From Chrysophaeum taylorii (lineage: Eukaryota; Sar; Pelagophyceae; Pelagomonadales; Pelagomonadaceae), in NCBI GenBank assembly GCA_029834535.1, contig JAQMWT010000526.1, positions 62,001-126,000 on the forward strand: a DNA stretch of 64,000 nt. Reading direction: 5' to 3'. The translations under genes and the position numbers were made by a program. Positions 45,014-63,034 of the stretch are shown piece by piece. Position 1 is the first letter of the stretch; every line of letters starts with the position of its first letter. The notes beneath the pieces were generated by a model that saw only the letters and a program-made list of their open reading frames with translations, was not told the DNA's origin and ran no database searches.

Positions 45014-46027
45014 TTAGGATTCAGAAGAGGACGCAGTTGGGGAGACAAGGCCGGGCACGAAGTCCTGGGCAGCGGCGTTGAGTTTGGAGAGCGAGGGTCG
45101 GGGGCGGGTGAAGCCGATGGTTCCTTTCTCAGGGCCTTTGGCGAGGCGCTCGCGCACGTGGTTCTGCACCGAGGTGCGGAGACGGGTCGGGCGTTCGCCG
45201 GGCGGTTCCGCGGGGGCCGGGGAGTCGTCGTTGGGCGGGGCAGGCGCGGGCACGGGGTCGTCGCAGCGGCGGACGTCGCGCGCCTGCTTCTTGCTCTCGC
45301 CGTCCTTGATGACGAGTTCGGGAGTGTACTCGACGAGGTCGCCGACCTTAAGTTTGGCGTCCCTGAGCTCGGAGGCGAGGAAAAAGGCGTTGTCGTCCTT
45401 GGTCTTGGCGCGCGCGGGTTTAATGAAGCCGTACTTGTTGACTTTGAGGTAGGCAAGCTTGCCTTTTTCGCGGATGGGCGGGAGGCCTGCGATCTTGCGC
45501 GCCACCGCCGGCGTCTGTCCCGACTTGAGCGTGACGCGTAAGCCCGAACGCCAGTTTGCGGCATCGTTGAGGCGCTCGACCGCCTTGATCGCCGCGGCCT
45601 CGTCGACGTAAGTAACCGTGTCTTCCGTCGCGCTCTCGATCTTTCCAACGGCCCCGAATACCTCGACCAAGTCCCCCTTGTTATTCTTCACCTCGACCGT
45701 CCGCCGTTCGACCTCGCTCGGCTGCTGCGCGACGAGCTCCCGGACTTGCTTGGAAAAGTCGCGCCGCAGGCGCCACTCGCCGTCTGACTGCTGAAACGCC
45801 TCGACTTCCGTGTTCTCGACCGCCTTGAGCACCAAGGTCTCGTCGGTCGTCAGCTTGCGCAATCGCTTCATCACCGTTTTGAGCGACACCGAAAGGCCGA
45901 TTTGCAGCTCGCACAACAAAAACAGGTCTTTGGTCAGGTTTTCTTCGCTTAGGAAGTGGAGGATCTGCCGTCGCGCCATCACGATGACCTCCTCCTCCCT
46001 CCGCTTTTTGCCCTTCTCGGGCTTCAT
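45014..46027 (-). CDS. La-related protein, LARP6-like, with cold-shock-like domain and SUZ-C
   Basis: 337-residue RNA-binding protein. La motif about 14-90 (ARRQILHFLSEENLTKDLFL, then GLSVSLKTVMKRL), RRM-like fold about 105-165 with a short RNP region (VFGAVGKIESATEDTVTYVD), then a beta-rich block about 178-245 (KGKLAYLKVNKYGFIKPARA, KVGDLVEYTPEL) resembling a cold-shock domain, a disordered Pro/Asp linker, and a C-terminal PEKGTIGFTRPR, the SUZ-C motif that marks LARP6. LARP6 proteins bind structured mRNA regions and regulate translation; the target here is unknown. The cold-shock-like insert is unusual. It is divergent from the integrase-repeat gene with 129 bp between ATGs. Confidence 0.82.
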   Translation of the reverse strand: MKPEKGKKRREEEVIVMARRQILHFLSEENLTKDLFLLCELQIGLSVSLKTVMKRLRKLTTDETLVLKAVENTEVEAFQQSDGEWRLRRDFSKQVRELVAQQPSEVERRTVEVKNNKGDLVEVFGAVGKIESATEDTVTYVDEAAAIKAVERLNDAANWRSGLRVTLKSGQTPAVARKIAGLPPIREKGKLAYLKVNKYGFIKPARAKTKDDNAFFLASELRDAKLKVGDLVEYTPELVIKDGESKKQARDVRRCDDPVPAPAPPNDDSPAPAEPPGERPTRLRTSVQNHVRERLAKGPEKGTIGFTRPRPSLSKLNAAAQDFVPGLVSPTASSSES

Positions 46028-47168: not shown

Positions 47169-49676
47169 ATGCGTCGTCTCGTGTGGAGCATGATGAGCTC
47201 CTACGCGAGCGGGCTGTTGTTGAGCGCAATACCGCGGCGGGTGGCCTGGCGGCGAAGCGTGACGATGTGCCGCCACCGCCGCACGTTGACCGCCGCCGCC
47301 GCGGGGTGGGAGGACGACTCCGACGAGGCGAGGGAACGGGCGTTAGCGGCCGCCGTCGGTGGGGCGACCGGGCGGCGGCGGCGGAAATCCTTGCCGTTGA
47401 AGATTCGACGGCTGGTCGCGTACCGGCAAAAGTACGCGTGCGCCTCGTGCGGCGTGCTGTTGCCGCCCAACCACCAGGTCGACCACGTCGTTCCGGCGGC
47501 TTTGAACGGGAGCGACGCGCTGCCTAACCTTCAGGCGCTTTGCCTCGAGTGCCACAAGCAGAAGACGCGCGAGCAGCGGCACGAGATTTTGCGCACCACC
47601 CAAGAGCCTCGTCGGCGCGACGACAAGGCGCGCGTCGTCGCCGTCGAGAAGGAGGTGGCGGTCGAGCTGAACGAGGCGCAGCGGAAGGCGGTGGAGTTGC
47701 CGGGTCCGATTCGCGTGGTCGCCGGACCCGGTACGGGAAAGACGCGTGTCCTGACGTCGCGCATCGAAGAGCTGCTGCGACGCGGCGAACGGTCGATCCT
47801 CGCGCTAACGTTCACCAACAAGGCCGCGAACGAGATGCGCGAACGGCTCGCGCGCGTCGAAAATTCGGAGTCGGTGTCGGTCGGGACGTTTCACCGCGTG
47901 TGCCTCTCGATCCTGCGGCACGCTCCCGAAGAGAGAGCCCCTGGGTTCGCGTGCTACGACCAGACGGCGATGATCAAGCTCACCCGGTACTGCATCGAGA
48001 GTCTTCTTGGCCTCGACGCGAAGGAGTGGGTGCCGTCGCGGGTTCAGGCGCTTATCTCCGAGGCGAGAAACGCGCGAGAACGGCTCGACGGCACGCTCGG
48101 GCGAATCATGGAGGCGTACGAGGAGGAGCTGAAACGGCGAAACGTGGTCGATTTCGACGACATGCTGCTCCTCGGCTTGAAATCGCTCGAGCGGACGCGA
48201 CGCCGGCGGTGGCGACACGTGCTCGTCGACGAATTTCAGGACTCGAACAGTCTCCAATACGAGTTCTTGAAGCTGCTTTCTGACACGCCCTTCGCCGTCG
48301 GCGACTCGGACCAGGCGATCTACGGATGGCGCGGCGCGGACTACGATAATCTCCGGAAATTCGACGCCGACTTTCCAGGTCGCGCTCTCGTGACGCTCGA
48401 CCAAAACTACCGCAGCTCCCAGCAAATCCTCGACGCCGCCGCGAGCCTGATCGCCGCAGCCGGCCAGCCGCGCGACGACATTAAGCTCCAGGCCAACATC
48501 CCCCCGGGACCCATCCCGACGCTCGTCCGCCTGCGAGACCAGGACGCCGAGGCGCGCTTCGTCGCCGACCTCGCCTCGCGGCTCGACGAGGAGACCGCGT
48601 CGATCGCGGTCGTCTACAGGACCAACGCCCAGAGCCGCGCCTTCGAGACCCAACTCCTGCGCCACGGCGTGCCCTACCACCTCGCAAGCCAACGCGCTTT
48701 CTTCGAGCGCCGCGAAGTCCGCGACGTCCTCGCCTACCTTACCCTCGTCGTCTCGGACGACGACGATTCGAGCCTCGACCGCGTACTCAACGTCCCCCCC
48801 CGTGCCGTCGGCGAAAAGTCCCGAGCTCTCCTCCTCGATGCAGCAGCCAAAAACAACGGATCCCTCGCGGCCACCATCCGCGATCCGCCACCGGGACTTT
48901 TTCCGCGCGCCCTCAAGGGCCTCGAAGACCTCGTCGGCATAATCGACGACCTCAGGAGGACCCTCGCCGCGACCGAAACCACCACCAAAGACCTCTCCTC
49001 GTACCTCGCGCGACTCCTCGAGATCACGAGGTACGACGAATACGTCCAAGCCGAGGTCGACAACGGCGTCGACCGCTGGCGCAATCTCCGCGAACTCGCA
49101 AACCTCGCCGCCAAGTACGACGTCTCGCAGATCCTCGAATTCCTCGACGACTGCGCCCTCGTCCAGGACCAGGACGCGCTCGAAACGACGGAAATTTCCA
49201 AAACTACTACGAAAGTCCATCTCCTCACCATCCACGCGGCCAAGGGACTCGAATACGACGTCGTCTTCGTCGCCGGCTGCGAAGACGGCCTCCTCCCGCA
49301 CTTCTACGCCTTAGAAGAAGGCGACCTCCGAGAGGAGCGCCGCCTCCTCTACGTCGCCATGACCCGAGCCAAGCGACGCCTCTACCTCCTCTGCGCTACG
49401 ACTCGCCTCACCTGGGGCATCACGCGCGACATGAAACCCTCCACCTTCCTCGGCGACATCCCGTCGCGCCAGCTCGACCTCGTCGACCTCGTCGCGACGA
49501 CCACCCGAGAAAACTCCGCCAAACGCCATAAAGGCGGCAAAACTTCCTCCTCCTCCTCCTACTACGCCAGCCTCAAGCCGGGGGACTCACGACGACGACA
49601 GGGACGACGACAGGGAGGCGGCAAGGTCCAAAGGGCAAAGCCATCAGATCTAACCGACGACGATTTCGACGACTAG
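47169..49676 (+). CDS. HNH nuclease-UvrD/PcrA superfamily 1 helicase fusion
   Basis: 835 residues. An Arg-rich, acidic-poor N-terminus (MRRLVWSMMSSYASGLLLSA) suggests an organelle presequence. An HNH domain follows (about 88-140): CASCG, then NHQVDHVVPAALNGSD and LQALCLECHKQKT, with both zinc Cys pairs and the catalytic DHVV His. The helicase has GPGTGKTRV (186), ALTFTNKAANEMRERL, FHRVCLSIL, DEFQDSNSLQYEFL (352), QAIYGWRGADYDNL (381), LDQNYRSS, TIHAAKGLEYDVVF (688) and VAMTRAKRRLYLL (728), all SF1A motifs, giving 3'-5' DNA unwinding. The closest relatives are bacterial PcrA/UvrD, so an endosymbiont or organellar origin is likely. The C-terminus is Ser/Arg-rich. Confidence 0.93.
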   Translation: MRRLVWSMMSSYASGLLLSAIPRRVAWRRSVTMCRHRRTLTAAAAGWEDDSDEARERALAAAVGGATGRRRRKSLPLKIRRLVAYRQKYACASCGVLLPPNHQVDHVVPAALNGSDALPNLQALCLECHKQKTREQRHEILRTTQEPRRRDDKARVVAVEKEVAVELNEAQRKAVELPGPIRVVAGPGTGKTRVLTSRIEELLRRGERSILALTFTNKAANEMRERLARVENSESVSVGTFHRVCLSILRHAPEERAPGFACYDQTAMIKLTRYCIESLLGLDAKEWVPSRVQALISEARNARERLDGTLGRIMEAYEEELKRRNVVDFDDMLLLGLKSLERTRRRRWRHVLVDEFQDSNSLQYEFLKLLSDTPFAVGDSDQAIYGWRGADYDNLRKFDADFPGRALVTLDQNYRSSQQILDAAASLIAAAGQPRDDIKLQANIPPGPIPTLVRLRDQDAEARFVADLASRLDEETASIAVVYRTNAQSRAFETQLLRHGVPYHLASQRAFFERREVRDVLAYLTLVVSDDDDSSLDRVLNVPPRAVGEKSRALLLDAAAKNNGSLAATIRDPPPGLFPRALKGLEDLVGIIDDLRRTLAATETTTKDLSSYLARLLEITRYDEYVQAEVDNGVDRWRNLRELANLAAKYDVSQILEFLDDCALVQDQDALETTEISKTTTKVHLLTIHAAKGLEYDVVFVAGCEDGLLPHFYALEEGDLREERRLLYVAMTRAKRRLYLLCATTRLTWGITRDMKPSTFLGDIPSRQLDLVDLVATTTRENSAKRHKGGKTSSSSSYYASLKPGDSRRRQGRRQGGGKVQRAKPSDLTDDDFDD

Positions 49677-58927: not shown

Positions 58928-59139
58928 GAGTGACGCGATGTTGTTGCCGCGCCGCCCCGAGCTTTTTTTTGTTGTTCTCCTTCCGTATAATCCTGATTCT
59001 TATCATCGAGTTGAGAGGCGCAGATCACACATCAAAACTACACCACGGCTTTTTTTATTATCCGTTGCTGTTATTTGAGAGGCGGCAGGCAGCTGACGTC
59101 AAAGATTCGTTCCTTCCTTAGCTCTTGGCACCAGCTCAG

Positions 59140-61334
59140 ATGTCGACGACGGTCTCGCACCTCAAGTCGCTGAACGGGACTCCGGTCCGGGAGGCGTTGA
59201 CGCCCGTGGTGGTGGAAGTTGGAGAAGAAAACGTGCGGGTGTCGACCGTTGACGGCGTGCTCGTCGTGGGCGAGGCGAGCGTCCGGGAAGAGGGGGCCAG
59301 GCTGTCGTTCGCCGACGACGATACCGCCGAGGGGCTCGCGCGCGGCCGGCTGACGCCGCAGCGCGCCCTCGCGAGCGGCGCCATGCGCGTGCACGGCGAC
59401 CCGATGGCCCTGCGCGCCGTTGGACCCTTGCTGGCGAGCGCGGTCGCGTCGTTCCGGATCGTCGCCGAGCGCGCGCGCGGCAAAGAAAGGTACTACGCCG
59501 TCCAATGTCCGCCGCACCCGCCAAAGGAACGGCGATTCGAAGAGTTCGTGGCGCTTCGGCGCAGATTGCGAATCGGGCCATCGCTTTCGGGTTTCGCGGT
59601 GTGCGGCGACCGGCGCGCTCTCGTCGACCTCTGGCTCAAAGAGCTCTCGGGCCGGCCCGCCGCCCGCGCCGCGCTCCGGGAGTTCGCCGGCGTCCCAAAA
59701 GAAGACGATGATGATCCTCGGCGCGAAGAACTTATAAAAGAGCTGCGCCGGCGCGTCAAGGAGCCCGAGGAGCTCGCGTGTCGCGTCGCCGCCGCCGCGA
59801 CGTACGCTACGTCTCGATTCGTAGCGGTCGCGATCGCCATCGTTGGCTTCGCGGGCGGAGGTTATCTTTGCGGTTTCGTGCTGCCGAGGCCCGTCGGCGT
59901 GCCGCTCTGGGTGGCCGCGCTCGTTTTCTTTTTCTCGGAGCGGCTTCTGGCCCACCTCACGCGCCTCTGCTGCGCTGTCGTCTGCGCGGCCGCTTGGCGC
60001 TGCGCCAAGTTGACCGAGCCGTCGGCAGAAAAGAAGGACGACGAGAAGAAATTAGTTGCCCTCGCCGACGGGGCGCGGCCCCTCGCCGAGAGGCTCGCCC
60101 TGAGGCTCGCGGGAGAGGTCGTCGCCCGCGTCGCCGTTGCAGAGAAAGGCTTGCTCGTCAAGCTCGCGCAGTTCGTCGCGAGCATGTCGGGACTCTTGAG
60201 CCCGGAACTCACGGAGCCCCTCGTCGGTCTCACCGACGCCATGCCGCAGATGTCCCGACGGGACCTCAAGAAGCGCCTCGATTTCGCTCTTTTCCAGAAG
60301 CTCGAGGCGCCGGTCGCGGCGGCGTCGATCGCCCAGGTTCATCGCGTCTGCCGCGACGACGGCGTTTGGACGGCCGTCAAGGTCCAGAAGCCCGGCCTCC
60401 GGCGCCGCTTCTCCGTCGAGCTCCGATCGGCGCGCGCGATCGCGGCCCTCGCCGTGCGCCTCGAGCCCACGGCGCCCGACATCCGCGCGACCCTCGACGA
60501 CGCCTACGACCTCCACATCAAGGAGCTCGATTTCGCTGCCGAGGCGGTCGCGCTTCGCGCCGCGAGGCGAGTCGTTACTGCTCGCGCCCTCGACTGCGTC
60601 GTGCCCGAGCCCCTCGAGGAGTACGACGGCGTCCTCGTGATGCGTTGGTGCGACGGCTCCAAGATCGCCGACGTCTCCCTGTCTGCCGTAACCCTCGCCG
60701 ACGGTACGCGCCTCGCGATTCCGCAAGTCGCCGGCCTCGCGTCCAAGCTCGTCGACTCCTTCGCTGCCCTCTTTCTCGTCGGGGGCCTCGTCAACCTCGA
60801 CCCGCACGCCGGCAACGTCCTCGTCCAAATGACCGCCGCCGGACCGAGGCCCGTGCTTCTAGATTGGGGTATGCACGAGATCCTGCGCCGCGACGTTCGC
60901 TTGGGTTTTGCGAAGATTCTCGTCGCGACCGCCGACGGCGACGCCCGGGCCATCGGAGAAGCCTTAAGCTCCCTCGGCGTCAAATCCACCTTCTCTTCCG
61001 ACGACAGCCTCTTGCATCTTCGCTTCCTGCTGCGTGCCTCGAATCACGATGCGCGCCTCGACCGCGCAGAGATCGAGGCCTTCGCGCGCGCCTACGAGAA
61101 CCAGGTCGAAATCGCAAAAACCGAGGCCAAGACGAGCAACCAGCGCATCGTTGATGGCGCTGAGGTGAGTCTTTTGTCCTACGCCTCACAACCCGCCGCC
61201 GCCAGGTCTTTAATTCGCTCGTGAGGCAGCTCGACCTTCTCCACGGTTACGTCGCCGCCCTCCCGTGCCGCGTCGACTTTCTCTCCGCCTACGCTAAGTG
61301 GGGTCGCATCGCCCTCGAAGAAGCATCATGCTAA
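59140..61334 (+). CDS. SCP2-PX-ABC1/ADCK atypical kinase
   Basis: Exons 59140-61164 and 61206-61334 (41-nt intron GTGAGT...GCCAG) give 717 residues. Without splicing the frame ends in a short unrelated tail; spliced, it continues EVFNSLVRQLDLLHGYVAA to a natural end. N-terminal SCP2 lipid-binding-like domain (about 15-105, GRLTPQRALASGAMRVHGD), a PX-like block (about 108-190, RRFEEFVALRRRL), two hydrophobic helices (about 228-275), then the ABC1 kinase: KLAQFVASM (KxGQ-like, here KLAQ), AAASIAQVHR (about 392), AVKVQKPG, HIKELDF, NLDPHAGNVLV (553) and LLDWGM (572). ABC1 proteins support ubiquinone/plastoquinone or prenyl-lipid metabolism in mitochondria or plastids. The three-domain order suggests lipid handling at a membrane. 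Confidence 0.9.
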
Positions 61335-61444: not shown

Positions 61445-63034
61445 CTACTTTTTCTTCTTTTTGCCTCGACGCTCGCGGCCCTTGGTAGCGTTCGGGTTTT
61501 TTCGGCCGTAGCCTACCGTGAGCTTTGGGGCTGCGTGGAGGTCCAAGTCCACGAGCGCGTCGGCGACGTCGGGACCGAAGACCGACGTCTTTGCGACCGC
61601 CTTGTGGTGAGCCTTGTGGCGGTCGTGCTTCTGGCGCCAAATGCCGGAGAAAAGCTGGTCCTCGCGGAGCAGAAGGTCCCCTTGGAAGCGATCAACCGAG
61701 CTCTTGGGCGCCCGGTAGGCCTTGGGCTTGGGGAGCGCGAACTTGGTGCCCTGGCATCTTCGCGTCGACACCCGCGGCGGACGAACGGTTCCGTCCGCGG
61801 CGACGCCAACCTTGCGAAGGGCGTCGCTCCCGCAACGGCCGCAAAACAGTCGTTCGAGATCCTTCGTCTCGAGCGCGAAACACGCTGCGCACCGCACGAC
61901 AAATCGCCGCGTGCGCTCGATGCGGCGCCCGTCGACCGACACGAGCCGCAGCCCCATCTGGACGAGGACGTTTTGCATCGCGAAGTCGGACGTCGCGCAC
62001 GCTGCCGCGCACACCGACTCCTCGAGCTCCGGTCGACAGGAGTCTTCGACCCCGGGGCCGACCCACCCGACGCCGTCGTCTTCGCGGGAGTCCCCCGTGC
62101 TCACCCCCGACACGTTCGCACCGCTCAATATTCGTGACGGGATGGCGTTCTCCGCGGTCGCTCTTCGCGGTTCGTCATCGTCGCAGGTGTCGTCGCACGG
62201 CGCCAACGTGTCATCGTCGACACCGGGCTCCCCATCAGGTTCCTCCTCGCTCGCCTCTGCTTGCTCCTCATCATCATCATCATCTTCTTCCTCCTCCTCC
62301 TCCGATGCAGGCTCTTCTTCTCCCTCCGCCAACGCTGGCTCGTCGACTCGGATGGGCCTCGAGGCGGTACGTCTGTTATCAGCGTGCAACGCGCGAAGGT
62401 GTGCCGTGGTCCCCGATTCCTTGGCCTCGAGATCGTAGGTGAGCGCTATGATGCCGACATCCTGGTTCGAGAGCGAACGCGCGTCGCCAGTCTCGCGCGC
62501 GAAGGCGCGAACGCGCGCGATAGCTTCGGGCGACGGCTCGCGAGCAGCTACGGCGAAAGGCAGCGCCGCAAGACGCCGCCGCGACTCCTCGTCGCGAATC
62601 TCCGCGATCACAGCCGGCGTCGTGTAGACTGGAACGCTCGAGAGCCAGGTCAGACCGCCACGAATGAGCACGTTGGCGTCGACGACGACGGCCGCGCACC
62701 TCCGCGCGACGCGAACGACGCCCTCGCCCGAGACGGCGATCACCTTGGACCCGGAGGCGGCTTGGCGCAGCGTCGATACCTCCACGCCCCTCAGCCGTGG
62801 AAAGTCCAGCAACTTTGCGAAGGGTACAACCCCGTCGATCACGAGACTCTGGAGGTAGCTGTCACGAGGATAGTTCGCATCGCTAAAGTAGTACTCGACC
62901 TGCCGCCGAACCGCCGAAACCTGCGAGTCCTCCTCCTCCTCTCCGCCAGGGACCTCTTCCGCCCTAACGATCGGCGCCGGAGCGGGGGCGGGCGCAGGCG
63001 CTGGCACCTTCGCCGCAATGGAAGCCCAGCTCAT
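61445..63034 (-). CDS. NOB1: NOB1 ribosome-assembly endonuclease with N-terminal La motif
   Basis: 529 residues from ATG 63034 (MSWASIAAKVPAP). NOB1 cuts pre-18S rRNA at site D inside cytoplasmic pre-40S particles. PIN domain about 112-225: AAVVVDANVLIRGG (catalytic Asp about 119), VYTTPAVIAEIRDEESRRRL, TGDARSLSNQDVGIIALTYD. Then an acidic low-complexity linker, the zinc ribbon CAACFALETKDLERLFCGRC, and the conserved C-terminal LLLREDQLFSGIWRQK, ending in a Lys run. Unusually, residues about 38-108 form a La-type RNA-binding winged helix: VSAVRRQVEYYFSDANYPRD, VPFAKLLDFPRL, and a winged C-terminal part. All normal NOB1 elements are kept, so the La domain is an addition. Converges with the ABC1 gene. 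Confidence 0.92.
   Translation of the reverse strand: MSWASIAAKVPAPAPAPAPAPIVRAEEVPGGEEEEDSQVSAVRRQVEYYFSDANYPRDSYLQSLVIDGVVPFAKLLDFPRLRGVEVSTLRQAASGSKVIAVSGEGVVRVARRCAAVVVDANVLIRGGLTWLSSVPVYTTPAVIAEIRDEESRRRLAALPFAVAAREPSPEAIARVRAFARETGDARSLSNQDVGIIALTYDLEAKESGTTAHLRALHADNRRTASRPIRVDEPALAEGEEEPASEEEEEEDDDDDEEQAEASEEEPDGEPGVDDDTLAPCDDTCDDDEPRRATAENAIPSRILSGANVSGVSTGDSREDDGVGWVGPGVEDSCRPELEESVCAAACATSDFAMQNVLVQMGLRLVSVDGRRIERTRRFVVRCAACFALETKDLERLFCGRCGSDALRKVGVAADGTVRPPRVSTRRCQGTKFALPKPKAYRAPKSSVDRFQGDLLLREDQLFSGIWRQKHDRHKAHHKAVAKTSVFGPDVADALVDLDLHAAPKLTVGYGRKNPNATKGRERRGKKKKK

Follow-up and report, generated by a model that had tools for sequence, protein, structure and literature searches.

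A La motif ahead of the PIN domain in the NOB1 of the alga Chrysophaeum taylorii, with a possible grip on the 3′ end of pre-18S rRNA

The endonuclease NOB1 performs the final cleavage of 18S ribosomal RNA (rRNA), at site D, by which a pre-40S particle becomes a functional 40S subunit. In the pelagophyte alga Chrysophaeum taylorii (assembly GCA_029834535.1; 70.8 Mb in 697 contigs), we analysed a window of 64,000 nucleotides, bases 62001–126000 of contig JAQMWT010000526.1 (C526), in which a NOB1 gene with a La motif in front of its nuclease domain occupies positions 61445..63034 of the minus strand. The assembly has 84 matches to the light-harvesting family PF00504, as fits an alga. The NOB1 gene is a single open frame, stop included, that runs from an ATG at 63034 to a TAG stop at 61445–61447 with 0 internal stops and encodes a La motif–NOB1 protein of 529 amino acids. 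The N-terminal tail (residues 1–37; 62924..63034, minus strand like all parts of the gene) passes from SWASIAAK into a run of Pro/Ala and an acidic stretch and carries the sole in-frame ATG that precedes the PIN domain. When the whole assembly was searched with a degenerate DNA pattern for SWASIAAK, this gene was the one exact match. The La motif (residues 38–114; 62693..62923) and the PIN nuclease domain (residues 115–204; 62423..62692) come next, followed by an acidic low-complexity linker and the first section of the C-terminal half, which contains DFAMQNVLVQMGL (together residues 205–366; 61937..62422), the NOB1 zinc ribbon (residues 372–439; 61718..61921), and a C-terminal tail (residues 440–529; 61448..61717) with REDQL at residue 457 and a lysine-rich end.

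The NOB1 part is readily recognised. Pfam assigns PIN_6 (PF17146, 88.8 bits) to residues 116–202 and Zn_ribbon_NOB1 (PF08772, 48.7 bits) to residues 372–439, while the rows for Ribosomal_S27, Velvet and Pox_Ag35 fall below their own cut-offs, and a PDB sequence search with the whole protein lists human NOB1 (E 7.4e-42), yeast NOB1 (E 2.5e-25) and, for the PIN part, 2lcq (3.4e-11). In the alignment with human and yeast NOB1, D119, E145, D184 and D192, which we take to be the catalytic positions of the PIN domain, are invariant, as are cysteines 382, 385, 398 and 401, the two CxxC pairs of the zinc ribbon. When the assembly was searched with the fusion protein, only one of the 20 scored candidates was a match, and the PF08772 profile gave two, one of them above the cut-off and the weak second (16.4 bits) below it, so that neither search found a free-standing second NOB1 in the assembly. 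NOB1 is therefore single-copy in this genome, matching what is expected of an essential factor, and the fusion gene is very probably the alga's single detected NOB1, with the function of that enzyme.

An earlier note, made from the sequence alone, had described a complete NOB1 (PIN, zinc ribbon and REDQL) preceded in the same frame by a La-type segment, and the 529-residue frame with its Pfam and PDB matches bears this out. The La profile that it proposed for the N-terminal part scores above its curated cut-off (PF05383; 45.3 against 37.1 bits, E 7.8e-12, residues 42–85). The whole-protein PDB search additionally lists the La motifs of La and LARP1, and with residues 36–115 as the query the search returned 2m5w (La; 7.3e-7) and 7soo (LARP1; 2.3e-6). 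The La part has the La winged-helix fold, with its final strand at residues 106–109 in the predicted structure. The six residues of the pocket that holds the last RNA bases in human La and in LARP1 are Q, Y, Y, D, F and F, in accord with the PDB sequences, and they correspond here to Q45, Y48, Y49, D58, Y60 and F78, so that five of the six are identical to both human proteins. PMC11259064 gives roles in LARP1 for most of these residues. The Pfam scan of the fusion protein found no RRM directly after the La motif, where the PIN domain comes next; LARP1 likewise has no RRM adjoining its La motif in the account of the same source.

Whether the two parts truly belong to one gene is the first question that such a layout raises. 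The assembly may hold overlaps or duplicated ends elsewhere (C289 and C572, discussed below), and two genes, or an assembly or gene-model error, could in principle have been read as one protein. Nevertheless, the La part and NOB1 share a frame in which the three ATG codons are codons 1, 353 and 360, none able to start the PIN domain alone, and the GC content at third codon positions is of the coding type straight across the junction (La part 0.80, junction 0.85, PIN 0.77), against a GC of 0.49–0.54 at any position over the 300 bases that precede the ATG. Moreover, the La part ends with the modelled strand at residues 106–109 and the PIN match begins at 114–116, which leaves no room for an intergenic stretch, and the assembly yielded neither a free-standing NOB1 nor a second copy of the La part. 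Because codons 1 and 353 enclose no in-frame ATG and La adjoins PIN without a spacer, two separate genes are unlikely; the case for a single gene, drawn from features of the DNA, is strong but indirect, and we regard an artefact of either kind as very improbable. The fusion architecture is thus supported by sequence, hidden Markov model matches and predicted structure, and a La motif placed ahead of PIN in NOB1 is almost certainly a genuine fusion.

This motif is not alone in the genome. PF05383 gave eight rows in the assembly, seven of them above the cut-off. Two La-like frames, L005 on C289 (La, RRM_3) and L006 on C572, look alike by eye over some 160 residues before they diverge, the C572 one lying near a contig end; they may be an assembly overlap, alleles or a partial duplicate, possibly copies of one gene, and if they are counted once there are seven La-motif genes. 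L003 (La, RRM_1, RRM_3) is La-like and represents the genome's own La, L007 carries La and RRM_1, and L002 has La only, in a frame of 952 amino acids. L003 and L002 match human La and LARP1 in all six pocket letters; each of the four remaining La motifs in the comparison departs from them at one position or more. L008 (1369–2550; C533, match at 338544–338699 on the plus strand) joins a La motif (39.9 bits) to a DNA_pol_A_exo1 3′–5′ exonuclease domain (42.9 bits), and its closest PDB sequence match is EXD2 (1.9e-5). Two of the seven La genes, L008 and the NOB1 fusion, therefore combine La with a nuclease domain within one frame, a count that covers those frames only, and the La–exonuclease gene suggests that more than one nuclease of RNA 3′ ends may have received a La motif in this lineage. 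A tree of 11 La motifs, in which none of the eight branches is well supported, does not place the origin of the La part, and its best pairwise scores (Dictyostelium La 101, human LARP1 100 and the genome's own La 96) are too close to separate.

The remaining one of the seven La genes, L009, lies within the window (45014–46027, minus strand, 337 amino acids), with a La match below the cut-off (33.7 bits in the assembly search and 29.8 in the protein scan) and a weak Rho_RNA_bind match, also below its cut-off. Elsewhere in the window, a plus-strand frame of 700 amino acids, whose ABC1 atypical kinase domain scores 120.7 bits, spans 59122–61224 and is convergent with the NOB1 gene, and another of 835 amino acids at 47169–49676, also plus, combines an HNH endonuclease (38.2 bits) with a UvrD-type helicase (204.4 and 210.9 bits).

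What the La motif does on NOB1 is a separate matter, and beyond the architecture we infer every step. According to PMC11259064, the LARP1 La motif binds RNA alone, and a 3′-phosphate on A6 lowers its affinity about 200-fold. For human cells, PMC6315592 describes a pre-18S rRNA (18S-E) whose 3′ end is oligoadenylated, trimmed and then oligouridylated in the cytoplasm ahead of the NOB1 cut, and in PMC8112863 NOB1 waits next to its cut site, held off by DIM2. The La motif of the fusion could be a stand-alone grip for a 3′-OH, as in LARP1, that would hold the free 3′ end of the short internal transcribed spacer 1 (ITS1) stub on pre-18S rRNA, plain or with an A- or U-tail. Such a grip might keep NOB1 on the late pre-40S particle, shield the ITS1 3′ end against exonucleases, and position PIN on site D when the stub is short enough. 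We favour capture of the ITS1 3′ end because a La motif that works alone and is joined straight to PIN would sit near that end. The pre-18S 3′ end is nonetheless a target to which we would give slightly less than an even chance, and we hold fusion and target taken jointly to be about as probable. The earlier note had suggested that La might help to hold this end, and the kept pocket is compatible with that, but the pocket establishes neither RNA binding nor its target.

Several observations weigh against this proposal. La motifs can serve other RNAs, and the domain alone leaves the target unfixed. Model confidence is below 50 at residues 112–139, which leaves the geometry between La and PIN unfixed as well, and one aromatic position of the pocket is changed from F to Y (Y60). 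In Arabidopsis, pre-18S ends carry non-templated A, which in the data of PMC10104536 is scarce in the wild type and more abundant in the hot3 mutant. The fusion is known from one genome, the searched collections being viral and prokaryotic: no relatives were found in viral contigs (queried with the fusion protein and a NOB1 alignment) or in prokaryotic genome contigs (queried with the fusion protein).

The La motif of a real fusion may instead bind pol III transcripts (pre-tRNA, pre-5S) or the poly(A) tails of mRNAs. In that case NOB1 would be connected with translation or with further RNAs, and not with the 3′ end of the RNA that it cuts. In both La and LARP1 the La motif binds tails of U or A (PMC11259064), and the pocket kept in the fusion protein would suit this. 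Still, the genome already encodes a La with RRMs (L003), and as PMC8112863 places NOB1 on pre-40S beside site D, the free 3′ end closest to it would be expected to belong to pre-18S; we consider a role on other RNAs unlikely. Even less likely, in our estimate, is that the La motif does hardly anything with RNA, or nothing at all, and is a neutral or structural add-on or a protein-binding surface. The altered aromatic position, the modest La score of 45.3 bits and the single known genome would fit such an add-on, but both pocket and fold are kept, whereas drift would be expected to erase them.

If the La motif does take the pre-18S 3′ end, the NOB1 of this algal lineage might sense the free end of its own substrate, with La measuring or capturing a perhaps tailed ITS1 stub and so licensing the final cut, a proposal that we consider possible but rather doubtful. 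PMC6315592 states that the exact function of oligouridylation is still to be clarified. If NOB1 has such a 3′-end reader built in, the role of the ITS1 stub's 3′ end at the final cut, and the reason for its tailing, could be tested directly within one protein, and a control step for the final 18S cut would be built into the nuclease itself. The layout suggests an enzyme of the last small-rRNA cut with an extra RNA-end-gripping domain at its front, which may hold the loose RNA end that it removes. A word search of the open-access literature found no paper linking NOB1 with a La motif, or a La motif with a PIN domain, although such a search cannot show that the fusion is unpublished.

Compared with known NOB1 (human 6g18_y and yeast 8c01_o), the fusion protein shares a PIN domain with four common acidic positions, a DFAMQNV-type block and the zinc ribbon, and its C-terminal tail aligns more poorly. 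The matches of the human and yeast chains begin only at residues 116 and 114, with no La counterpart ahead of PIN, so the first 113 residues are extra relative to both. The earlier note's view that NOB1 of yeast, animals and plants consists of PIN plus zinc ribbon, with no La motif, is borne out for the chains listed in the PDB search (human, yeast and 2lcq), and its scope is those chains. A genuine La protein (LARP3) likewise has a La motif with a 3′-end pocket, but La has RRMs, as in L003, whereas none follows the La motif here. The LARP1 La motif (7sot, 7soo) differs in that here the motif is joined to a nuclease and its 3′-RNA binding is only predicted. A parallel lies in the same genome, in the DEDD-type exonuclease gene L008, where a La motif is also fused to an RNase-type domain, although that domain is a 3′–5′ exonuclease nearest to EXD2 in the PDB and the six pocket positions of its La motif are Y, F, W, D, F and F.
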